A stretch of 64,000 nucleotides of DNA from Paludisphaera rhizosphaerae. GTDB lineage: Bacteria > Planctomycetota > Planctomycetia > Isosphaerales > Isosphaeraceae. Below, piece by piece: positions 45,470-64,000 of the stretch. The notes under the pieces are model-generated. The model was not told where the DNA came from. It saw nothing but the letters and a program-made list of their open reading frames with translations, and did no database searches. The stretch covers positions 124,001-188,000 of the forward strand of contig NZ_JAALCR010000010.1 of the NCBI RefSeq assembly GCF_011065895.1, given 5' to 3'. A program made the translations under genes and the position numbers. Every line of letters starts with the position of its first letter. Position 1 is the stretch's first letter.

Positions 45470-45610
45470 CGGCTGGGCTCCGTCGCGATTGACAGATCGG
45501 TCGGATTGTGGATAACACGGACGCCCTCGTTGCGCCCGGCGTCTTGAGCCCAGGGAAGGGTGAACACGTCGCGCGGTCCGCCGCCGTCGGGGGCGATCCG
45601 TGGAGGATGG

Positions 45611-47125
45611 ATGGCGACCTTCCGCATCGACGCCCTCGGCCGAACGCCGGCCCGCCTTCGCAACTGGTTCGACCGCGCCCGCAAGGCGACTGGTGGTCGA
45701 TCCGCGCCAGCGCGGCTGGGATTGATCGCGGTCACGGCCGGCTGCCTGGCCGTCGCCGGATGTCTGGCCGTCTGGTCCGTCGGCTCGGCTGATCGAGTTT
45801 ACCTCGCCGCCGGCCGCGTCTTCCGGCCCGACGACCTCCACAAGATCGAGCGGGCCCTGCAATCTCAGGGAGTCGAGTACCGGATTGACGACCGCCGCAT
45901 GAGCGTCGCCGGCCGACAGGCCGAATCCGCCGCCGCGCTCGTCGCCAAGCTCGACCTGGGACCGCGCTCGCCCCGGGAGCTGCGCGACGTCGCCCCGGCC
46001 AGTTCCTTCTTTGAGAGCCCCAGTGAGAAGGAAGACCGGCTTCTACGCGGACGAGCCCAGCTTTGCGAGGCGTTCATCGACGATCTGCCCGGCGTTGAGA
46101 GCTCGCTGGTTAGGATCAATCGCAGTCAACAGCGCGGGGGGATTCGTCCGACTGTGAAGTCGACGGCCTTCGTCAGCATCCAAACCGAGGGGGGGCGTGA
46201 CGTGCCACTCCCCACCGTCGACTCGATCGTTTCCATCCTCATCGGCAACGAGCCCGGCCTTCAGCGGGAATCGATCACGGTCATGGACGGCGCGGGGCGT
46301 CGCTACCTGGACGCCGGCAATCCCGAACTGACCGCCCTGACCAACAACCGGGCCCACGAGGACGAGATCAGCCGGCGGATCCGCGACCAACTGGACTGGA
46401 TCAAGGACGTCCGCGTCACGGTCACGATCCACGACCCTCCTCCGGCCACGACGCCCGCGCCGACCGTCCAGACATCGTCACCGAAGTACGAACCGGCGAC
46501 GACTCACGCGGGGATGTCCGTCGGCCTCAACCGGGCGATGGAGATCGAGACCGACGAAGAGCCTGCACCCGCGCCGGAGGTCGTCGTTCCTGCTCTCCCC
46601 ACGCCGGCGAAGCGTCACGGCGAGGTCTGGGTGCTCGTCCCGCGGAGCTACTACTACAACGCCACCCGCAAGCCCGAGGGAGGCGCTGCGTCCCACGAGG
46701 ACCACGTCGCCCTGATGAACCGGACGGAGGGGCTGGTCCTCAACGCGGTCCGGCTCGCGGCGTCCGACGACGACGGGATCGAGTGGGCTCCGCCGAAGGT
46801 CGACGTCTTGCCCGACGAGATGCCCGTCGATACCGCTCCATCCGTCGCCGTCTCGTCATCTCGGCGAGCGGCCCGCGAGTGGGCGTTGGCAGGTGGTGCG
46901 GGGGCGGCCGCGGCGGCCATTGTGGCGATCGGCACCTGGATCCTCGGCGGCTTGCAGCCCTCGCGGCGGAGTTCCTCCTCGCGGAGCGGCGATCTGCGCT
47001 ACCACCGTGGAACGCCCGGAACGCCGGCTCCGACGGAGCGGGTCCTTGAATTCGTCCGACGCAATCCGGAAACCGCATTCAGCGTCCTCAACCGATGGAC
47101 GACCCAGGGAGGGGGGAGGTCATGA
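45611..47125 (+). CDS. fliF: Flagellar M-ring protein FliF
   Basis: FliF forms the MS ring on which the rotor and export gate are built. The 504-residue product has two membrane helices (about 40-61 and 437-455) around a periplasmic part with ring-building motifs (GVESSLVRINRSQQRGG, KSTAFVSIQTEG, LTALTNNRAHEDEISRRIRDQL), and a C-terminal FliG-binding tail (ERVLEFVRRNPETAFSVLNRW). It is about 50 residues shorter than usual. ATG 45611 has GGAGG at 45602-45606. The stop overlaps fliG by four bases (ATGA). Confidence 0.88.
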   Translation: MATFRIDALGRTPARLRNWFDRARKATGGRSAPARLGLIAVTAGCLAVAGCLAVWSVGSADRVYLAAGRVFRPDDLHKIERALQSQGVEYRIDDRRMSVAGRQAESAAALVAKLDLGPRSPRELRDVAPASSFFESPSEKEDRLLRGRAQLCEAFIDDLPGVESSLVRINRSQQRGGIRPTVKSTAFVSIQTEGGRDVPLPTVDSIVSILIGNEPGLQRESITVMDGAGRRYLDAGNPELTALTNNRAHEDEISRRIRDQLDWIKDVRVTVTIHDPPPATTPAPTVQTSSPKYEPATTHAGMSVGLNRAMEIETDEEPAPAPEVVVPALPTPAKRHGEVWVLVPRSYYYNATRKPEGGAASHEDHVALMNRTEGLVLNAVRLAASDDDGIEWAPPKVDVLPDEMPVDTAPSVAVSSSRRAAREWALAGGAGAAAAAIVAIGTWILGGLQPSRRSSSSRSGDLRYHRGTPGTPAPTERVLEFVRRNPETAFSVLNRWTTQGGGRS

Positions 47126-47757
47126 ATCCGACGGCCCCGTCCGCTCGACCGACGCAACGCGCTCGCGACATGGGCGACCCTCCGCGCGTGACCTCGCCCA
47201 CGGCGAACGCGCCCGAGGCCGCGCCGCCGATCATCGATCCGCCGTCGATCACCGCCATCCCGCCCCTGCGCAAGGCGGCGATCGTACTGGTGAGCCTGGA
47301 GCAGTCGCTTTCCTCGCAGATGCTCGCCCACCTGGATCACGCCGCGGTCGAGGCCGTCACCTGGGAGATCGCCCGGATGGACCGCGTCGACCCGGCCGAA
47401 CAGGCCGTGGTTCTGGAGGAGTTCCTGGCGCTCGGCCTGCGACGGCTCTGCTTCGTTTTCGAGGACGTCCTTCGCATGGACGACCGCCAGCTCCGAGCCG
47501 CGTTTCGCCCCGAGGACGCCGAGGCCTGGGCGTTGGCCCTGGCCGGCTCGGCTCCGCCGCTGCGGGCCAAGGTGCTTGGCGCGCTGAACACGTCGGCCGC
47601 CCTGGTGCTCCAGCGTCATCTGGAGAACCTTGGGCCGTTCCGGCTCTCGGACACGGAAGTCGCGCAGGTGGAGGTCGCGGAGTTGCTCCGGATCCTCTCC
47701 GACCAGGGCGCGATCGACCTGCCCGATCCCAGCGGCCGGGAAGAAGTGCTGGTCTGA
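47122..47757 (+). CDS. fliG: Two-domain FliG-like protein lacking the middle domain
   Basis: FliG is the rotor protein whose C-terminal domain meets the stator. This 211-residue form has an unstructured Pro/Ala lead (1-45), a FliG-N domain (RKAAIVLVSLEQSLSSQMLAHL, 50-71, then WEIARMD) and a FliG-C domain (112-211). The usual length is about 330; the middle domain that binds FliM is absent. Aligned without gaps to the E. coli C-terminal domain, K264 becomes A141, R281 S158, D288 R165 and D289 H166; only R297 is kept (R174). ATG 47122 overlaps fliF. The family is clear; torque function is doubtful. Confidence 0.87.
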   Translation: MNPTAPSARPTQRARDMGDPPRVTSPTANAPEAAPPIIDPPSITAIPPLRKAAIVLVSLEQSLSSQMLAHLDHAAVEAVTWEIARMDRVDPAEQAVVLEEFLALGLRRLCFVFEDVLRMDDRQLRAAFRPEDAEAWALALAGSAPPLRAKVLGALNTSAALVLQRHLENLGPFRLSDTEVAQVEVAELLRILSDQGAIDLPDPSGREEVLV

Positions 47758-47804: not shown

Positions 47805-48293
47805 ATGGCCCGAACCAAACTCCTGCTGCTGTCTCTCGCCCTGCTGCTGGCGACGGCCCCGGCCGTACCAGCCCAGGAAGCCCCCGCGCCCGAAACGGTA
47901 AAGTCGTCGCGGGAGACGCTCGCCTCCCGGAAGTCGCGTTCAACGCTCGCGCCGACCTCGCAGGCCTGGTGGCTGGGGACGGCCGTCATGATCCTGGCGC
48001 TCGGCGGCGCTGGTGCGATCTGCATGGCCGCGAAGCATCGGACCGAGAGTGGGCCGACGGTTCGCCTTCAGGTCGTCGGCCGGGTCGCACTCCCCCCGAA
48101 ACACGCGGTCTTCGCCGTGAAAGCCGGCGGTCGGACGCTTCTGATCGGCGTCGGCCCCCAGGGGGCGCCCTCGCTCGTCGGCGAGCTTGACGCCGACGAT
48201 GAACCCGTCGTCGAGCCAGCCAAGGTCTCCACGCCTCATCGCCCGGTCCACACCCAGCCACGCTTTGACGTGAGGATCGGAGACGAATCATGA
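47805..48293 (+). CDS. fliO: FliO-like flagellar biosynthesis protein
   Basis: FliO is a small membrane protein that helps FliP assemble in the export gate. The 162-residue product has a signal-like hydrophobic start (KLLLLSLALLLATAPAVPAQ), one membrane helix (about 54-76, WWLGTAVMILALGGAGAICMA) and a beta-rich cytoplasmic domain (LQVVGRVALPPKHAVFAVKAGGRTLLIGVG) as in FliO. GAGGGG at 47792-47797 supports ATG 47805. FliO is poorly conserved, so position before fliP carries much of the evidence. It overlaps fliP by four bases. Confidence 0.85.
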   Translation: MARTKLLLLSLALLLATAPAVPAQEAPAPETVKSSRETLASRKSRSTLAPTSQAWWLGTAVMILALGGAGAICMAAKHRTESGPTVRLQVVGRVALPPKHAVFAVKAGGRTLLIGVGPQGAPSLVGELDADDEPVVEPAKVSTPHRPVHTQPRFDVRIGDES

Positions 48294-49138
48294 ACGGCCG
48301 AAACGCCGCGCGATGGTTCGCCGTGATACTGCTCCTGACGCTCGCATCGCCATGCCTCGCCCAGACGCAGGCGCAGCCCGGTCCTCAGCGCAAAGCGGCG
48401 GTCACCCAGGTCAACACGCCTGTCGAGGTCCCCGAGCCCTCGCCGACGCCCGAGAAGGCTGCGACGCCGACCATGGCGGCCGACGCGTCGCGGACGGTTC
48501 AGCAGGTCTTGATGTTCGGCGCGGCCTCGCTCATCCCGGTGGCGCTGCTGACGATCACGCCGTTCGTGCGGATCAACATCGTGCTGATCCTGCTGCGACA
48601 GGCGCTGGGGAGTCCGCAGGTGCCGGGGAACCAGGTGCTCACGGCGCTCTCGCTCTTGCTTGCCGCCCTGGTAATGCGGCCCGTCGCCGAGAAGGTCTAC
48701 GTCGAGGCGATCGAGCCCTACCAGGCCGGTCGCGTAGGCGTCGCCGAAGCCTGGCGGACCGGGTCGGAACCGATCAAGACGTTCATGGTCGATCAGATCG
48801 TCCTGACCAACCATCAGGAATACCTGACGACGCTCTACGACCGGGCGCATCCCGGCGCGTCCTTCGGTTCGAAGCCCGACGCGGCGGAGGACTTCCCGAT
48901 CGGAGTCGTCGCGCCGGCGTACATCCTCAGCGAGCTGACGACGGCCCTGAAGATCGGCTTCATGCTCTACCTGCCGTTCCTGGTGATCGACCTGGTGGTC
49001 TCAGCCGTGCTGGCGGCGATGGGGCTGTTCATGCTGCCGCCGACGCTGGTTTCGACGCCCGCCAAGTTGATCGTCTTCGTCCTGGCCGACGGCTGGCTGC
49101 TGGTGGCCGACATGCTGCTCGCCAGCCTTTCGGCCTAG
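48290..49138 (+). CDS. fliP: Flagellar export gate protein FliP
   Basis: FliP (SctR) forms the core pore of the flagellar export gate as a pentamer with FliQ and FliR. The 282-residue product has a signal peptide, then FliP hallmarks LLTITPFVRINIVLILLRQALGSPQ-like sequence (read at 84-107), PAYILSELTTALKIGFMLYLPFLVIDLVVSAVL and the closing MLPPTLVSTPAKLIVFVLADGW, each given here in pieces. The ATG overlaps fliO. It is well conserved and shows no sign of decay, unlike FliG and FlhB here. Confidence 0.94.
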   Translation: MNGRNAARWFAVILLLTLASPCLAQTQAQPGPQRKAAVTQVNTPVEVPEPSPTPEKAATPTMAADASRTVQQVLMFGAASLIPVALLTITPFVRINIVLILLRQALGSPQVPGNQVLTALSLLLAALVMRPVAEKVYVEAIEPYQAGRVGVAEAWRTGSEPIKTFMVDQIVLTNHQEYLTTLYDRAHPGASFGSKPDAAEDFPIGVVAPAYILSELTTALKIGFMLYLPFLVIDLVVSAVLAAMGLFMLPPTLVSTPAKLIVFVLADGWLLVADMLLASLSA

Positions 49139-49155: not shown

Positions 49156-49422
49156 GTGGACCTCAACGTGACGATCGACTGGACCCGCGAGGCTCTCCGG
49201 CTGGCCCTGATGCTGGGCGGGCCGATCCTGGCCGCGGCGCTGGTGGTGGGGCTGGCGGTGAACGTTCTTCAAACCATGACCCAGCTTAACGAGCCGGTCG
49301 TCGGCCTGGTGCCGCGGTTGGTGGCCGTGGTCGTCGCCACTCTCGTCCTGCTGCCCTGGCTGGCGGCCCGTTGGATCGAGTTCACGGTCGATCTCATCGG
49401 CTCCATCCCCGACATGCTCTGA
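49156..49422 (+). CDS. fliQ: Flagellar export gate protein FliQ
   Basis: FliQ (SctS) is the two-helix subunit that wraps the FliP/FliR core. The 88-residue product has the normal FliQ length and segments LMLGGPILAAALVVGLAVNV and QTMTQLNEPVVGLVPRLVAV, which match FliQ (LQAxTQxNE). It begins at GTG 49156, seven bases after AAGGAG (49143-49148), and 17 bases after the fliP stop. It shares its strand with a long open frame entering from 48313, but only the fliQ part is protein-like, so it should be treated as a separate small gene. Confidence 0.92.
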   Translation: MDLNVTIDWTREALRLALMLGGPILAAALVVGLAVNVLQTMTQLNEPVVGLVPRLVAVVVATLVLLPWLAARWIEFTVDLIGSIPDML

Positions 49423-49445
49423 TCCTGTTGCGAAGGCGGGCCTTG

Positions 49446-50213
49446 ATGGGCGACATCCCGATCGAGCTGGGCTGGTCGTGGGCGACGGCGACGGCCTGCG
49501 TCCTGGCGGGCGCACGGACGGCCGGCGTCTGCTTCACGGCTCCGACCCTGGCCGCCCCCGGGCTCGACTGGCGGTATCGTATCGTGACGGCGCTGGCGCT
49601 CGGCGTCTGGACGGCTCCGCTCGCCGCGACTGCGATTGGGACGCCCTCCTCACCCTACGGCTTCGGCGGTCTGATCGTCGGCGAGGCGCTCGTGGGGGCG
49701 TTGCTGGGGCTGTCGGCGTCGCTGGTGGTGGCCGGCGCTCGGCAGGCCGGCGAACTGGTTGCGGCCCAGGCCGGCCTGACGACAGCCTCGCTCTTCGACC
49801 CTGAGACGGGAGAGGAAACCTCGGCCCTCGGCCACCTTTACGGCCTGATCGCGATCGCCGTCTTCCTAGCGATGAACGGCCCGCTCGTGGTGCTCGACAG
49901 TCTGCTCCGGAGCTTTGAGGCGATCCCCGCCGGCTCGCTCGTCTTCGAGCGGAGCGTGATCCAGCAGTTGTTCGGACGCGCGGCCGAGGCGCTTCAACTG
50001 GCCGTTCGCGCCGCGGCGCCGCCGGCGATCGCCCTGGCGACGGCCGGCGTGGCGCTCGGATGGCTCGGCCGACTGGCCCCAAGCGTCCCTCTGATGGCCC
50101 TGTCGCTCCCCATTCGCGCGACCCTCGGCGTTCTTCTTATTATGGCGAGCTTGGCCGCCTTGACTGCCTGTCTGGAAGGCGGCTGGTCGGCCTGGGCGAC
50201 CGGCGGATTCTGA
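49446..50213 (+). CDS. fliR: Flagellar export gate protein FliR
   Basis: FliR (SctT) completes the export-gate core and abuts FlhB. The 255-residue product is polytopic with six predicted helices. Family segments include FTAPTLAAPGLDWRYRIVTALAL, GEALVGALLGLSASLVVAGARQAGEL and IALATAGVALGWLGRLAPSVPLM, quoted here in part. ATG 49446 is 23 bases after fliQ and a gap of 13 bases separates it from flhB. It looks intact and of normal length. Confidence 0.93.
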   Translation: MGDIPIELGWSWATATACVLAGARTAGVCFTAPTLAAPGLDWRYRIVTALALGVWTAPLAATAIGTPSSPYGFGGLIVGEALVGALLGLSASLVVAGARQAGELVAAQAGLTTASLFDPETGEETSALGHLYGLIAIAVFLAMNGPLVVLDSLLRSFEAIPAGSLVFERSVIQQLFGRAAEALQLAVRAAAPPAIALATAGVALGWLGRLAPSVPLMALSLPIRATLGVLLIMASLAALTACLEGGWSAWATGGF

Positions 50214-50226
50214 GCGGGGAGGAGTG

Positions 50227-51255
50227 ATGTCTGAGGACCGCACCCAAGCCGCGTCGCCGCGTCGCCGCCAAATGGCTCGCGAGCAGGGGCAAGCGGCGCA
50301 CAGCCCAGAGCTGACGGCGGCCGTCGGTTGGCTCGTCGCTGTGGCGATGCTGGCTGCTTTTCAAACGAGCCTTGTCGGCTCGCTCGTCGAGGTTGTCCAG
50401 TCGCCGTTCGCGAGCCCCGCCGCTCGTCTCAATAACGCGGTCGATCTGGCGAGGCTGGTTCGAACGGCGATGTGGGGCGTTGCGATGCCGGTGGGGGCGG
50501 TGGTCTCGGGTTTCGCCGTGGGCGCGTTCGCGGCGCATCAGTTTCAGACCCTCGGCCTGTTCGCGCCGGGGCTGATCGCCCCGGACGTTTCGCGGCTTTG
50601 GAGGCCCGGGCGGGGCGGGGGATTGGGAGCGAAGGTCGAGCGTTGCGTCTGGTCTGCGGCCAAGGCGGTCATCCTGGCCGGCGTGATGATCTGGGGCGTG
50701 CGTTCGCGTTGGGATGTGCTTGAAAGCCTGAGTTTCCTGGACTTTCCTGACGCGGTTCGCGGCGGTCTCGGCGCCTTGCTGGCTCCGGCCTGGACGCTGG
50801 CGGCGGCGATGCTCGCGGTCGGGATCGTGGACTATGGGCTTCGCTCCTCGCGGTTCGAGGCCATGCTGCGGACGACGCCCGAGGAACATCGAGAGGACCA
50901 GCGGACCATCGAGGGGGATCCCCGGACCCGAGCCTCGCGACGGAGGCTGGCGAAGTCCTGGCGCGAGGGGGCTTCCGAACTCCTCGAAGGGGCGACTCTC
51001 GTGCTGACGGGCGACGGGGGACTAATCGTGGTCCTCGCCGGCGGACCGCCGCCGCGCAAGGTATTCGTCCGGACCGCGGCGCGAGGGAAGTCGGCCGCGC
51101 CGCTGAGAGCCGCGATCGCGCGGGCGAATCTGCCGACGCGCGAGGCTCCGTCGCTCGCTCGGCTGATCGTTTCGAGGCCGGCCGCATCGTCGCGCGGGGC
51201 GATCGCCGATCCGCTGCTGATCGCCCAGATTCGCGCCCTCTGGCAGACCGCCTGA
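50227..51255 (+). CDS. flhB: FlhB-like export switch protein without the autocleavage site
   Basis: FlhB (SctU) sets substrate class by cleaving itself between Asn and Pro of NPTH in its cytoplasmic domain. The 342-residue product has the four-helix membrane half and the linker EGDPRTRASRRRLAK that is typical of FlhB. At the site where NPTHY should be (about 262-265), the sequence is LVLTGDGGLIVVL, so Asn-Pro-Thr-His is GDGG. Autocleavage should be impossible. The start is ATG 50227 behind GGGGAGGAG; GTG 50224 is an alternative. The gene is 14 bases after fliR. Confidence 0.87.
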   Translation: MSEDRTQAASPRRRQMAREQGQAAHSPELTAAVGWLVAVAMLAAFQTSLVGSLVEVVQSPFASPAARLNNAVDLARLVRTAMWGVAMPVGAVVSGFAVGAFAAHQFQTLGLFAPGLIAPDVSRLWRPGRGGGLGAKVERCVWSAAKAVILAGVMIWGVRSRWDVLESLSFLDFPDAVRGGLGALLAPAWTLAAAMLAVGIVDYGLRSSRFEAMLRTTPEEHREDQRTIEGDPRTRASRRRLAKSWREGASELLEGATLVLTGDGGLIVVLAGGPPPRKVFVRTAARGKSAAPLRAAIARANLPTREAPSLARLIVSRPAASSRGAIADPLLIAQIRALWQTA

Positions 51256-51450: not shown

Positions 51451-53694
51451 ATGCCCCCCTCGACGTCCGGTAGCAACGCCTTCTGGCGGAATGCTTCGAG
51501 CCTGGTGCTGCCGCTGACGATCGTCGGCGCGGTGCTGGTCTTCGTCGTACCCATCTCGGCCGAGGTGCTCGACCTTCTCCTTTCAGCGAACCTCACGCTT
51601 GCGGTGCTCGTCCTGCTGACCACGCTGGCGATCCGGACTCCCCAGGAATTCAGCGCGTTCCCGACGATCCTGCTGACGACCACGCTGACGCGGCTCGTCC
51701 TGAACGTCGCCACCACCCGGCGAATCCTCACCCACGGCGGAGTGATGGGCCTGGATGCGGCCGGCACGGTGGTCCGGGCGTTCGGCCAGTTCGTCGCCGG
51801 CGACCAGGTGCTGGTGGGCGTGATCCTCTTCTCGATCCTCGTCGTCATCCAGTTCGTCGTGATCACGAAGGGCGCCACGCGCATCAGCGAGGTCGCCGCG
51901 CGGTTCATGCTCGACGGCCTGCCTGGGCGGCAGATGGCCATCGACGCCGACCTGCACGCCGGGATCATCGACCAGCATCAGGCCCACGCCCGGCGTGACG
52001 AGGTCTATCGCCAGGCGGACTTCTTCGGGGCGATGGACGGCGCCGGCAAGTTCGTCCGGGGCGACGCCGTCGCGGGCGTGGTGATCCTGCTGGTGAACAT
52101 CGCCGGCGGCCTGTTCATCGGCGTCGTCCAGCACGGGATGGCACCGACGGAAGCGATCGACGTCTTCACCCGACTGACGATCGGCGACGGTCTGGTCAGC
52201 CAGGTTCCGGCGTTCCTGATCTCGCTGGCGGCGGGCCTGATCGTCACCCGATCGTCCTCGGCCAGCGACCTCGGCCGCGACGTCGTCGGCCAGCTCACCC
52301 GAAACCCCAGCGTCCTGGGCGTCTCCTCGGCGTTCCTCGCCCTGCTGGCCCTCACCCCGCTGCCGAAGCTCCCGCTGCTGACGCTCGCTGGCGTCCTGGG
52401 CTGGCGGGCCTACCGACTGAGCGGGCAACCGGTCGAGGAGACCGACGAAGAACGCGAGGCTGAGCCTCAGACCCGGCCTAACACACGGACCGACGCAGCC
52501 CGAGCCGAAGCCGAGCCCCACGTCCGTCCGGCCGCTGCGAGATCGCCTGAACCGGCCCGTCCCGCGAGCGACCCGGCCTCGGACGACATGCAGAACCTGT
52601 TGCACGTGGACCTGTTGGAGTTGGAGATCGGCTACCGGCTGATCAGCCTGGCCGACTCCACTCGCGGCGGCAACCTGCTGGAGCGACTGCGGACCGTTCG
52701 GCAAGACGTGGCCCGGGAGCTTGGCCTGATCGTCCCGCAGGTTCGGATTCACGACGAGATCGGCCTCTCGGCCCACGAGTATCGGGTGAAGATTCGCGGC
52801 ACGGTCGTCGGCGGAGGTTCGGCTTACGCGGGCCGGCTGCTGGCCGTCCCGCCGGCGGGGCTGGCTGAGCGTCCCGAGGGACGCGAGGCCGTCGAGCCTG
52901 CCACCGGTCGCGCCGCGGTCTGGATCCACGCCGAAGGCCGCGAGGTCGCCGAACTGGCCGGGTGCAAGATCCTGGACGCCGCCGCCTACGTCGCCTCCCA
53001 CTTCGGCGAGATCGTCCGCAACCACGCGGATGAGTTGCTGACCCGCGAACAGGTCGACCGTCTGCTGGATCGCGTTCGAAGCACGTCTCCGACGCTCGCC
53101 AACGAGGTCGTCCCCGGCCTGATGCGGCCCGGCGAGTTGCAGCGGCTGTTGCAGAACCTCCTGCGAGAGCAGGTGAGCGTTCGCGACCTGGAAACGATCC
53201 TGGAGACGATGGCCGTTCACGCGGGGAAGACCAAGGACGTGGAGTCGCTCACGGAACTGGCCCGCCAGAGCCTCGCGCGTCAGATCACCGAGAGCCACCG
53301 CTCGGAAGACGGCCGGCTGCGGGTCGTGACGCTGGCCCAGGATCTCAACGCCAGGCTAGCGGCGGTCGCCGCGCAGTCGGAGGCCCATCCCTCGGAAGCG
53401 CTGGGGGACGAGACGGTCCGCAACATCCTTCGCGCCGTGGCTCAAGGAGTCGCGGCCCTGGTCGACGCCGGCCTGCCGCCGATCGTGCTGACGACGGCCT
53501 CCGCTCGAGCCGTGCTCAAGGACCTGACCCGCGCCGATTTGCCCCGGCTCGTCGTCCTCAGCCAGCGCGAGATTCCCCGCGATACGCCCGTCGAAGTTCT
53601 CGGGACGATCGTCGAGGATCCGATCGAAGAGGATGAAGCAGACGCGACCGGCCAGGATCCGATCTCGTTCGCCACTACCGAGGCGTTCGCATGA
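51451..53694 (+). CDS. flhA: Flagellar export gate protein FlhA
   Basis: FlhA (SctV) forms the nonameric export ring and couples the proton gradient to export. The 747-residue product has the membrane half of about eight helices with the FHIPEP signature (ISEVAARFMLDGLPGRQMAIDADL, about 145-168, with Asp in AIDAD), a linker rich in Glu/Pro/Arg (about 325-375), and the cytoplasmic ring domain (LHVDLLELEIGYRLISLAD and VPRTANEVVP-type region NEVVPGLMRPGELQRLLQ). The length matches the family. Its ATG follows GGAGAGGA. The ATGA stop overlaps flhF by four bases. Confidence 0.94.
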   Translation: MPPSTSGSNAFWRNASSLVLPLTIVGAVLVFVVPISAEVLDLLLSANLTLAVLVLLTTLAIRTPQEFSAFPTILLTTTLTRLVLNVATTRRILTHGGVMGLDAAGTVVRAFGQFVAGDQVLVGVILFSILVVIQFVVITKGATRISEVAARFMLDGLPGRQMAIDADLHAGIIDQHQAHARRDEVYRQADFFGAMDGAGKFVRGDAVAGVVILLVNIAGGLFIGVVQHGMAPTEAIDVFTRLTIGDGLVSQVPAFLISLAAGLIVTRSSSASDLGRDVVGQLTRNPSVLGVSSAFLALLALTPLPKLPLLTLAGVLGWRAYRLSGQPVEETDEEREAEPQTRPNTRTDAARAEAEPHVRPAAARSPEPARPASDPASDDMQNLLHVDLLELEIGYRLISLADSTRGGNLLERLRTVRQDVARELGLIVPQVRIHDEIGLSAHEYRVKIRGTVVGGGSAYAGRLLAVPPAGLAERPEGREAVEPATGRAAVWIHAEGREVAELAGCKILDAAAYVASHFGEIVRNHADELLTREQVDRLLDRVRSTSPTLANEVVPGLMRPGELQRLLQNLLREQVSVRDLETILETMAVHAGKTKDVESLTELARQSLARQITESHRSEDGRLRVVTLAQDLNARLAAVAAQSEAHPSEALGDETVRNILRAVAQGVAALVDAGLPPIVLTTASARAVLKDLTRADLPRLVVLSQREIPRDTPVEVLGTIVEDPIEEDEADATGQDPISFATTEAFA

Positions 53695-54827
53695 GCGCCG
53701 CGGGGCCCGCAGGACGGGCCGTGGTCGCAGGCGCCGCGAAGGTGCGGACCTATCGAGGTCGGACGATGCGCGAGGCCCTGACGCGGGTGCGCCGCGACCT
53801 CGGGGGCGATGCCGTGATTCTCGCCGCGCGAGAGGTCCGCCGCCGTCGGCTGTTCGGGCTGGGCCCTGACCAGTCGGTGGAGGTCGACGCCTCGCCGCCG
53901 CGATCGGAGTGGCTCGCGACGCCGGCCGACTCGCGACCCCCTCGCGGACTTGGCGGCGATCTCGGAAAGCTCCACATGATGGTCGGCGCGGTGAGCCGCC
54001 GGGGGGCGGTCGAGCAATGGACGCCCGAACTCCCCTCTGGCCTGGCGACCGCCTACGCTCGTCTCCTCGATCTCGACGCTCCCGAGCCCCAGGCGCGAGC
54101 CCTCGTTCGCGAGGCGGCCCGCGGCGGCGATGCTGAGGAATCCACGATCCCCTCGACAGGCGTCGTCGCCGTCAGGCAGGCCCTGGAAGACGCCCTCTCG
54201 ATCGCCCCGCCGGTCCGCCCGGTCAGCGGCACGCGGCGGGTCGTGGCGCTCGTCGGGCCGACGGGTGTGGGGAAGACGACGACGATCGCCAAGCTGGCTG
54301 CGACTCTGAGGCTTCAGCAAGGGGCACGCGTCGGCCTGCTCACCGTCGACGCTTACCGCATCGCCGCCGTGGAACAGCTCAAAACCTACGCCGAGATCCT
54401 CGACGTGCCGATCGCCGCGGCCGACGACCCTGAGTCGGCCCGTGGGGCTCTCGACGGTCTCGACGCTGCGGACGTCGTTCTGGTCGACACGGCCGGACGA
54501 GGCCCTCGCGACCGTGAGCGCATCGGCGAACTGGGCGATCTTCTGGCTCGATTGCGGCCTGACGAGGTCCATCTGGTCCTGTCCGCGACCACGTCCGCGC
54601 GGGGCCTTGGCGCGTCGGCCGAACTGTTCGCCCCCGCGCATCCTGACCGCTTGATCTTGACCAAGCTCGACGAAGCCGAGACTCTTGGGCCCTTGCTGGC
54701 CGTCCTCGGCCGAGCCGACCTCCCCGTCTCCCATCTGACGACGGGGCAGGCCGTGCCCGACGACGTCGAGGCCGCCTCGCGGGGCCGCCTCGCTCGGTTG
54801 ATCCTCGGCGAGGAGGCGGTCGCATGA
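53691..54827 (+). CDS. flhF: Flagellar biosynthesis GTPase FlhF
   Basis: FlhF is an SRP-type GTPase that sets the site and number of flagella. The 378-residue product has the family N-terminus (RTMREALTRVRRDLGGDAVILAAREV), a variable linker, and an NG-type GTPase with the P-loop GPTGVGKTTTIAKL, DAYRIAAVEQLKTYA, VDTAGRGPRD and TKLDEAE. It starts inside the flhA stop and its own stop overlaps the next small gene. The sequence looks intact, though no FlhG homologue follows in the usual place. Confidence 0.92.
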   Translation: MSAAGPAGRAVVAGAAKVRTYRGRTMREALTRVRRDLGGDAVILAAREVRRRRLFGLGPDQSVEVDASPPRSEWLATPADSRPPRGLGGDLGKLHMMVGAVSRRGAVEQWTPELPSGLATAYARLLDLDAPEPQARALVREAARGGDAEESTIPSTGVVAVRQALEDALSIAPPVRPVSGTRRVVALVGPTGVGKTTTIAKLAATLRLQQGARVGLLTVDAYRIAAVEQLKTYAEILDVPIAAADDPESARGALDGLDAADVVLVDTAGRGPRDRERIGELGDLLARLRPDEVHLVLSATTSARGLGASAELFAPAHPDRLILTKLDEAETLGPLLAVLGRADLPVSHLTTGQAVPDDVEAASRGRLARLILGEEAVA

Positions 54828-55066: not shown

Positions 55067-55377
55067 CGCCCCCGGGACCGCGTCCAGCCAGGGACGGCGG
55101 ACGACGGTTGAGAATGGCGGGCGGGTTGTTCGGGTTCTTCGGACGATGAGGCTCAAGACGAATGGGCGGGTCGTCCGATGAATACTGAGGATCGAGTTCC
55201 CTGAATGGTGAGGGGCGGGGGGCGGAATCGCCGACTCGGCCGACAGGTCCTCTAACGGGGGCCGACTCGGCGGGAGGAGATTCGCCCCGATCGAAGGAGG
55301 GCGGGCGGGCCGTCGCCCGCTCCCTGAGGCCGCACAGGGATGTGCGTCCCCTCGCAGCAGCCGACACGGAGGTCAGG
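55067..55377. other. Intergenic region before the sigma28-type gene
   Basis: The 311-base gap has no gene that I can support. It contains two copies of CCGACTCGGC about 30 bases apart (near 55228 and 55260) flanked by GGGGCGGAATC and GATTCGCCCC, which are roughly inverted. These may be regulatory or simply GC-rich coincidence. The promoter of the sigma factor should lie here, and GGAGG at 55368-55372 is its ribosome site. Confidence 0.35.
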
Positions 55378-56154
55378 ATGTCAACCAAGGTGGATGTGGA
55401 TGTGACCGAACTCTGGCGGGAGTTCAAGGAGCACCCCACCACGGAGCTGCGGAACCAGTTGGTCGAGCGTTACTTGGCTCTGGTCAAGTACAACGCCGAA
55501 CGCATCTGGCAGCGCCTCCCCGAGGGGGTCGATCTTGACGACCTGATCTCGGCAGGGGTCTTCGGCCTGATGGATGCGATCGACGCCTTCGACTTGACTC
55601 GCGGCGTCAAGTTCGAGACCTACTGCGTACCCCGCATCCGCGGCGCCATGCTCGACGAGCTGCGCACGATGGACTGGGTCCCCCGGCTGGTGCGGTCCAA
55701 GGCCACCAAGATGGAGGAGGCCCGCAAGGAGCTGGAGGCCCGCCACGGCCGGCCCCCCACCGACGTCGAGCTGGCCGAGCGACTCGGCCTGCCGATGGAA
55801 GAATACGAGAAGATGGCCAACGACGCCAACGCCGTCGGCCTCATCAGCCTCAATAAGAAGTGGTATGAGACCGACAGCTACAAGGACGTCCGCGAGATCG
55901 ACATTCTCGAGGACAAGAAGGGCGAGGACCCCACGCGTCGCCTCCAGCGCAAGGACCTGATGCGCATGGTGACGAAGGGGCTCAACCGCAACGAGCGTCT
56001 GATCATCATTCTCTATTATTATGAAGAATTGACCATGAAGGAGATCGGCGCGACGCTCGACCTGAGCGAATCGCGGGTCTCCCAGATGCACTCTTCGATC
56101 ATCCAGCGGCTTCAGTCTCAGCTCTCGCTCCGCCGCCCCGAATTCGGCACCTGA
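55378..56154 (+). CDS. FliA/WhiG-family RNA polymerase sigma factor
   Basis: Sigma-28-type factors drive late flagellar or developmental genes. The 258-residue product has region 2 (VDLDDLISAGVFGLMDAIDAFD and VKFETYCVPRIRGAMLDELR), region 3 (EARHGRPPTDVELAERLGL), and a region 4 helix-turn-helix (LTMKEIGATLDLSESRVSQMHSSIIQRL). The full family layout is present and no region 1 precedes it. GGAGG lies at 55368-55372, five bases before ATG 55378. It sits at the end of the flagellar-type cluster, as fliA does in many species; no anti-sigma FlgM-like gene was recognised. Confidence 0.93.
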   Translation: MSTKVDVDVTELWREFKEHPTTELRNQLVERYLALVKYNAERIWQRLPEGVDLDDLISAGVFGLMDAIDAFDLTRGVKFETYCVPRIRGAMLDELRTMDWVPRLVRSKATKMEEARKELEARHGRPPTDVELAERLGLPMEEYEKMANDANAVGLISLNKKWYETDSYKDVREIDILEDKKGEDPTRRLQRKDLMRMVTKGLNRNERLIIILYYYEELTMKEIGATLDLSESRVSQMHSSIIQRLQSQLSLRRPEFGT

Positions 56155-62658: not shown

Positions 62659-64000
62659 TCAACCGATGAACAGGCCGTTCAGCAGGGCGTTGGGTCCGCC
62701 GGTGTTGGCGATCCGGAAGACCACCTTGCCCGACAGGGCCCAGGAGAGATAGACGCCGTTGGAGAAGGAACTGATCGACCGCGAGTCGAGCACGGCCCCG
62801 GTGCTCGCGTCGAGAACGTCGACCTGTTGGTTGCGGTTCGAGCCGTCCCAGTCGAGGAAGTAGAGGGCGACGTTCTTGGCGGTCGAGCCCAGGTCGAGCG
62901 TGACCGTGAAGGCGGAGTTCGAATACCAGACGGCGGCGACGCGGTTAGAGGAGCCCGGAACCTGGAGGGCGCGGGAGTCGCTGGAGGCATCGCTCCAGAT
63001 GTAGGAGCCCGCCCCTGCGACGCCGAAGCCGTAGGAGGCGTCAAGGTTGGAGGCGGAGCCGGCCAGGGTATATCCGGAAGCTCCGTAGGCGGAGGTCCAG
63101 GTCCCCTGGGTCGTGGCGTCTGTCCCCAGATAGTTGGCCGTCGCCGCCGCGCCTGAGGGTCCGCCGATGAACAGGCCGTTGAGCAGGGCGTTGGGTCCGC
63201 CGGTGTTGGCGATCCGGAAGACCACCTTGCCCGACAGGGCCCAGGAGAGATAGACGCCGCTGGCGAAGGAGCTGATCGACCGTGAGTCGAGCACGGCTCC
63301 CGTGCCGGCGTCGAGAACGTCGACCTGTTGGTTGCGGTTCGAGCCGTCCCAGTCGAGGAAATAGAGAGCGACGTTCTTGGCGGTCGAGCCCAGGTCGAGC
63401 GCGACCGTGAACGAACCGCTGGAGTACCAGGCGGCGGCGATCCGGTTGGAGGAGCCTGGAGTTTGCAGGGCGCGGGAGTCGCTGGTGGCGTCGGTCCAGA
63501 CGTAGGGGCTGGCTCCTGCGACGCTGAAACCGTAGGACGAGTCGAGGTTGGAGGCGGAGCCGGCCAGGGCGTATCCGGAGGCTCCATAGGCGGAGGACCA
63601 GGTCCCCTGGGTGGTCGTATTGTTCCCCAGGTAATTGGCCGTCGCCGCCGCGCCCGACGGTCCGCCGATGAACAGGCCGTTGAGCAGGGCGTTGGGTCCG
63701 CCGGTGTTGGCGATCCGGAAGACGACCTTGCCCGACAGGGCCCAGGAGAGATACACGCCGCTGGCGAAGGAGCTGATCGACCGCGAGTCGAGCACGGCTC
63801 CCGTGCCGGCGTCGAGAACGTCGACCTGTTGGTTGCGGTTGGAGCCGTCCCAGTCGAGGAAGTAGAGGGCGACGTTCTTGGCGGTCGAGCCCAGGTCGAG
63901 CGCGACCGTGAACGAACCGCTGGAGTACCAGGCGGCGGCGATGCGGTTGGAGGAGCCCGGAGTTTGCAGGGCGCGGGAGTCGCTGGTGGCGTCGGTCCAG
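62659..64000 (-). CDS. Large exported-type protein of 167-residue tandem repeats (5' part outside the window)
   Basis: The visible 447 codons are the C-terminal part of a longer protein; the frame runs open to the window edge. It is made of a 167-residue unit repeated at least 2.7 times. Each unit contains a WxxAYGASGYxLAG segment, a SNLDxSYGF stretch, an NVALYFLDWDGSNRNQQVDVLD strand (quoted in part) and the closing GPNALLNGLFIG. The composition, with Gly/Ser/Asn/Thr-rich beta strands, suggests a carbohydrate-binding or galactose-binding-like domain chain at the cell surface. The last unit ends at the stop. Signal peptide and start are not visible. Confidence 0.82.
   Translation of the reverse strand, partial: WTDATSDSRALQTPGSSNRIAAAWYSSGSFTVALDLGSTAKNVALYFLDWDGSNRNQQVDVLDAGTGAVLDSRSISSFASGVYLSWALSGKVVFRIANTGGPNALLNGLFIGGPSGAAATANYLGNNTTTQGTWSSAYGASGYALAGSASNLDSSYGFSVAGASPYVWTDATSDSRALQTPGSSNRIAAAWYSSGSFTVALDLGSTAKNVALYFLDWDGSNRNQQVDVLDAGTGAVLDSRSISSFASGVYLSWALSGKVVFRIANTGGPNALLNGLFIGGPSGAAATANYLGTDATTQGTWTSAYGASGYTLAGSASNLDASYGFGVAGAGSYIWSDASSDSRALQVPGSSNRVAAVWYSNSAFTVTLDLGSTAKNVALYFLDWDGSNRNQQVDVLDASTGAVLDSRSISSFSNGVYLSWALSGKVVFRIANTGGPNALLNGLFIG
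62665..64000. repeat. 501-bp tandem DNA repeats
   Basis: The GATGAACAGGCCGTT boundary recurs at 62665, 63166 and 63667, an exact 501-base period (167 codons). Copies two and three are nearly identical in DNA, including silent positions, while copy one has diverged more. This points to recent duplication or gene conversion. Confidence 0.9.

Follow-up and report, generated by a model that had tools for sequence, protein, structure and literature searches.

Chlamydiae, which are non-motile and belong to the same superphylum as the planctomycetes, keep the flagellar homologues FliF, FliI and FlhA and are not known to have most of FliPQR-FlhB-FliG. The set found in the planctomycete family Isosphaeraceae, non-swimming bacteria of soils and bogs, is the reverse. 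The 'Myxo' non-flagellar type III secretion system (NF-T3SS) of the Myxococcales is, like the system described here, an export apparatus related to the flagellum that is inherited vertically and has no rod, hook, stator or identified outer structure, but it keeps the ATPase and has no FliG, while the Isosphaeraceae lack the ATPase domain and keep a short FliG and FliO (PMC3459982). With the injectisome, the SctQ-containing NF-T3SS, the Isosphaeraceae share a single double-SpoA protein instead of separate FliM and FliN and the absence of torque generation; on the other hand, their FliG, FlhF and FliO are flagellar, a SctN ATPase domain is missing and FlhB has no NPTH motif. FlhA, FlhB and FliQ of the window, the stretch of 64,000 nucleotides from Paludisphaera rhizosphaerae that was analysed, have higher scores as flagellar proteins than as injectisome components. 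As in flagellar operons, FliF, FliG parts, FliOPQR, FlhB, FlhA, FlhF and a FliA-type sigma factor are clustered and the C-terminal tail of FliF is kept, whereas stator, rod/hook, filament, FliM and FliI were not detected in the Isosphaeraceae, the FliG of which is devoid of the middle domain and the torque charges.

On the plus strand of the window, the flagellar-type operon fliF-fliG-fliO-fliP-fliQ-fliR-flhB-flhA-flhF is followed by the gene for a sigma factor of the FliA/WhiG family. The MS-ring protein gene fliF (45560-47125, start codon approximate; YscJ_FliF 57.3 bits) ends with the FliG-binding tail TERVLEFVRRNPETAFSVLNRWTTQGGGRS (47033-47122), which had been noted as retained in the initial annotation and is conserved family-wide in every genome from which FliF was recovered. 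A missing FliF_C domain (PF08345) was considered as a sign of rod loss and rejected, as the domain is also missing in two FliF proteins from rod/hook-bearing genomes. Downstream of fliG are located fliO (47805-48293; 30.3 bits, cut-off 22), fliP (48290-49138; 206.8 bits), fliQ (49156-49422; TIGR01402 68.6 bits, below the cut-off of 88.9), fliR (49371-50213; 149.5 bits), flhB (50224-51255), flhA (51451-53694; FHIPEP 773 bits), flhF for an SRP-type GTPase (53691-54827; TIGR03499 above cut-off) and the sigma factor gene (55342-56154, likely start 55378; TIGR02479 above cut-off). Homologues of the type III export gate components FliP, FliQ, FliR, FlhB and FlhA are all present, with the gene order retained across genera.

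The FlhB of the window has TGDGG instead of the NPTH autocleavage motif, and the motif is lost in every homologue that reaches this region; genus g20 has lost the FlhB C-domain and genome G012 the FlhB near FliG. In Salmonella, FlhB cleavage is needed for the switch to late substrates (PMC7911332); in the absence of hook and filament there is nothing for FlhB to switch to. In other genera, the interval from flhB to flhA contained no additional conserved genes, and a transposase-like ORF was seen by eye at this place in one g19 genome (L057:3896-5209, minus strand). Inspection of the raw sequence of the window by eye also revealed long tandem repeats, nearly identical and some 480-500 bases in length, at 62659-63980, inside a minus-strand ORF.

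The fliG gene (47122-47757, plus strand) encodes 211 amino acids followed by the stop codon. The open reading frame is real and intact, with its ATG at 47122 overlapping the fliF stop codon (ATGA) and preceded by a strong purine-rich ribosome-binding site. In a 220-amino-acid reading, Pfam recognises FliG_N from residue 57 (50.1 bits, cut-off 25) and FliG_C at residues 111-209 (74.7 bits, E 8e-21, cut-off 23.3), and the NCBIfam fliG equivalog reaches 82.8 bits, below its cut-off of 226.7. A weak FliG_M match of 25.2 bits coincides with the residues of the FliG_N match, so that there is no separate middle domain; the alternative that the retained N-terminal part is itself FliG_M is disfavoured by the two scores. 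In the short FliG, a proline-rich tail is combined with some 52 FliG_N residues and the C-terminal torque subdomain of Thermotoga maritima FliG structure 1qc7, which is matched without gaps. In E. coli numbering, residues ~9-59 from the region of FliG_N helices 1-3 (47263-47421) are directly joined to residues ~233-321 (47425-47721), with no counterpart of the second FliG_N half, ARM-M, the linker helix or ARM-C. The initial annotation had thus correctly proposed a two-domain FliG without the FliM-contacting middle domain, a description now refined by the additional loss of ARM-C. Its claim of a retained FliF-binding N-terminal part holds as far as the FliG_N match goes, but only about the first half of this domain is present, and its interaction with the FliF tail is expected without binding data. 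An AlphaFold model of the short FliG from three sequences reached a pLDDT of 51 and was left out of fold searches.

In the P. rhizosphaerae genome (8.05 Mb, 99.99% complete), a whole-genome profile search found a single FliG_C and a single FliG_N match, both of which are the fliG gene of the operon; an alternative complete fliG elsewhere in the genome, which would have refuted the initial interpretation, was not found. FliG is present in 38 of 45 Isosphaeraceae genomes, corresponding to 19 of 21 genera and 25 of 26 good-quality genomes. All 38 proteins are short, derive from open frames, have the common join (with a short extra linker in three g18 members) and lack the EHPQR-loop middle domain FliG_M (E. 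coli ~60-232). As join and losses are common to all of them, chance is excluded; the shortening of FliG is a single old deletion common to the family. In eleven genera of the family, a second FliG_C match directly follows the short fliG, a feature absent in Paludisphaera. In the cases read it is an ORF of its own, in a different frame and with FliG_C alone, and the seven ORFs read, all on the minus strand (L057:9187-9879, L061:9766-10116, L120:6969-7418, L123:6156-6587, L124:4277-4861, L137:8591-9127 and L013:1164-1748), retain neither R297 nor the torque residues.

Compared with E. coli K-12 FliG, the protein of the window shows the substitutions K264A, R281S, D288R and D289H with R297 kept, in agreement with all five residue assignments made initially. 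Family-wide, position 264 is occupied by alanine in 35, glycine in two and valine in one of the 38 proteins and never by lysine; R281 is found in 2/38, R/Q and A/H/R prevail at positions 288 and 289, where acidic residues are rare, and position 297 is arginine in 36 and lysine in two. Homologues in the clade with the torque set, a second potential refutation, were accordingly not encountered in the orthologue alignment. Related planctomycete FliG proteins, the best 30 from a class search, retain K264, R281 and E288 in 30/30 and E289 in 29/30. Being best-scoring, these outgroup sequences are biased towards conserved ones, which is offset by comparisons with family f3 and genus g94. The f3 FliG proteins read have kept R281, E/D288 and E289. 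Low FliG_C scores in f3 had been considered as further motorless systems, an idea rejected as all nine f3 genomes tested possess five to six rod/hook genes. Within the Isosphaeraceae, positions 281, 288 and 289 range at the 97th, 77th and 89th percentile of variability, and they are invariant or nearly so in the outgroup; three columns this variable occurred in 0.15% of random draws from the near-invariant set (P = 0.0015). Fold positions of FliG_C such as 259, 262, 263, 294 and 315 are fixed, which indicates that the domain has been retained while the stator-facing charges have not.

The losses extend to the entire motor. At the profile thresholds used, none of the 45 Isosphaeraceae genomes has MotB_plug above cut-off or Flagellin_N, whereas Flg_bbr_C of rod/hook proteins was found in one, a draft of 85% completeness that has no FliG, the FliI/SctN domain T3SS_ATPase_C in one as a contig-edge fragment, and FliM above cut-off in one, again a fragment. 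In the P. rhizosphaerae genome, neither the stator protein MotB, flagellin and rod/hook proteins nor T3SS_ATPase_C were detected. As a control, 18 of 20 searched genomes harbour five to six Flg_bbr_C genes; only P. rhizosphaerae and a second planctomycete, G202, have none. The whole machine, beyond FliG alone, is motorless. The initial annotation had viewed FliG as a retained scaffold that no longer drives rotation; with stator, rod/hook, filament, FliM and export ATPase also missing, the second part is supported, but the view was too narrow and 'scaffold' stays an inference. Four family genomes were compared in a 2017 study, which reports poorly represented flagellar assembly genes, no motile swarmers and species described as non-motile (PMC5352709). 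The retained core with a short FliG was not found in the passages of that study consulted, nor in the other literature searched. In Isosphaeraceae, annotation of FliG, FlhA or FliA should not be read as a sign of motility.

One SpoA-domain protein per genome is present in 34 of the 45 family genomes. In P. rhizosphaerae, its gene is located outside the window (contig C2, about 96.8-98.0 kb) adjoining unrelated genes, so that its link to FliG is based on profile and co-occurrence only. The best NCBIfam match of the protein is SctQ (TIGR02551, 87.1 bits over both SpoA domains, cut-off 100.8), its profile finds FliN and YscQ-C structures and its N-terminal part is a faint FliM relative. The loop that reads LLGGG or similar in planctomycete FliM has become LGFDRP or similar, with loss of GGxG. 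As the FliM GGxG loop is the contact partner of the FliG EHPQR loop (PMC7355467), both sides of this contact are gone. Contacting parts have in general been lost together: the FliG middle domain with FliM and the GGxG loop, the torque charges with the stator, and NPTH with the rod/hook/filament sequence. Four genomes (G004, G005, G012 and G034) have lost the SctQ-like gene.

A second planctomycete lineage offers a comparison. G202 (family f2, genus g94), without Flg_bbr_C, possesses a full-length FliG in which R281 and the acidic 288 charge are missing and K264 and EHPQ remain, along with a recognisable FliM with GG loop and FliH-FliI. The full-length FliG without R281 and the 288 acidic charge is seen in G202 and relatives (L111, L163-L165), and related genomes with two FliG proteins have one copy of each type. 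Natural FliF-FliG fusions of 864 and 894 amino acids with a FliG of the torque-residue-poor type occur in two-FliG genomes of g94 (L160:2895-5486, plus strand; L162:4980-7661, minus strand). The patterns of Isosphaeraceae and G202 suggest that charge loss tracks the loss of the axial structure and middle-domain loss that of FliM, although two cases are not a statistical test.

We consider it fairly probable that the short FliG belongs to a flagellum-derived, PMF-driven, non-rotating export apparatus. Directly observed are gene content, domain loss, residue loss and conservation, while assembly, FliF-FliG binding, export activity and the connection of the SctQ-like protein with FliG are inferred. 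FliF would form the membrane ring, the C-terminal tail of which may be bound by the retained N-terminal helices of FliG as in flagella. With its C-terminal subdomain fused to these helices, FliG could form a compact collar under the ring and couple it to the cytoplasmic side; the torque-helix charges would have drifted as no stator was faced and the middle domain would have been dropped as there was no FliM to bind. The SctQ-like protein, with a divergent FliM-like core and two SpoA domains, probably supplies a cytoplasmic ring or pods, and FlhA-FlhB-FliPQR may act as a PMF-driven gate without FliI and without the early/late substrate switch of FlhB, for the passage of unidentified substrates through the inner membrane. 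That PMF can drive export in the absence of FliHI has been established with Salmonella bypass strains (PMC7911332). Against the export reading, no substrate, chaperone or outer-membrane channel has been identified, whereby secretins were outside the searches.

The main and serious rival is decay, whereby the locus would be a leftover of an ancestral planctomycete flagellum under weak selection and on its way out, with FliG domains lost as unused. Within Paludisphaera, omega is relaxed for FliF (0.51), FliP (0.38), the SctQ-like protein (0.30), FliG (0.29) and FlhA (0.24) as compared with 0.04 for the sigma factor (55378-56154), the most constrained gene at the locus, so that the operon is constrained but relaxed, clearly so versus its neighbour. 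Values for FliO, computed in a wrong frame (47806 in place of the true ATG at 47805), and for FtsY, distorted by a mismatched G028 sequence, were left out. The stepwise disappearance, in some genera, of the FlhB C-domain, the FlhB near FliG, the SctQ-like gene or FliG fits decay as well, as do descriptions of the species as non-motile (PMC5352709). Nevertheless, all omega values are well below 1, the 38 FliG frames have stayed open after one old family-wide deletion, the operon is conserved in most genera and the C-domain fold residues and the FliF tail are strongly conserved, which makes decay a rather unlikely account, though not one to be set aside. Given that no flagellin or late genes were found, the regulon of the sigma factor must be something else.

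Considerably less probable is a non-secretory role, in which FliF-FliG rings and FlhF would provide the membrane with a landmark or organise the cell as a ring, for instance during budding, with the gate as a mere assembly nucleus. The FliF tail and FliG N-terminal part kept as an interaction pair and the retention in the operon of FlhF, a placement GTPase in flagellates, would suit this role, but a landmark would not need the substrate-handling FlhA, the most conserved large export gene with a near-complete profile match. A motor that still rotates, using another stator and other torque residues, could be invoked for the conserved FliG_C fold and R297, but is close to refuted by the highly variable torque-helix columns and by the lack of MotB, flagellin, FliM and, apart from one draft, rod/hook genes in the family.

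Beyond the export reading itself, we propose more tentatively, as a possibility short of an expectation, that the Isosphaeraceae have, independently and as a whole clade, turned a flagellum into an export machine that does not rotate. Such a machine would combine a minimal FliF-FliG(NC) mount with a single SctQ-like C-ring protein and a non-switching FlhB and would do without an export ATPase, and G202 and its relatives would be a second parallel case. If true, nature would have repeated here the step from which injectisomes are thought to have arisen. Within one clade, the family shows which flagellar parts fall away once rotation is not needed, and it provides a testable, non-pathogenic comparison for the origin of secretion systems from flagella.
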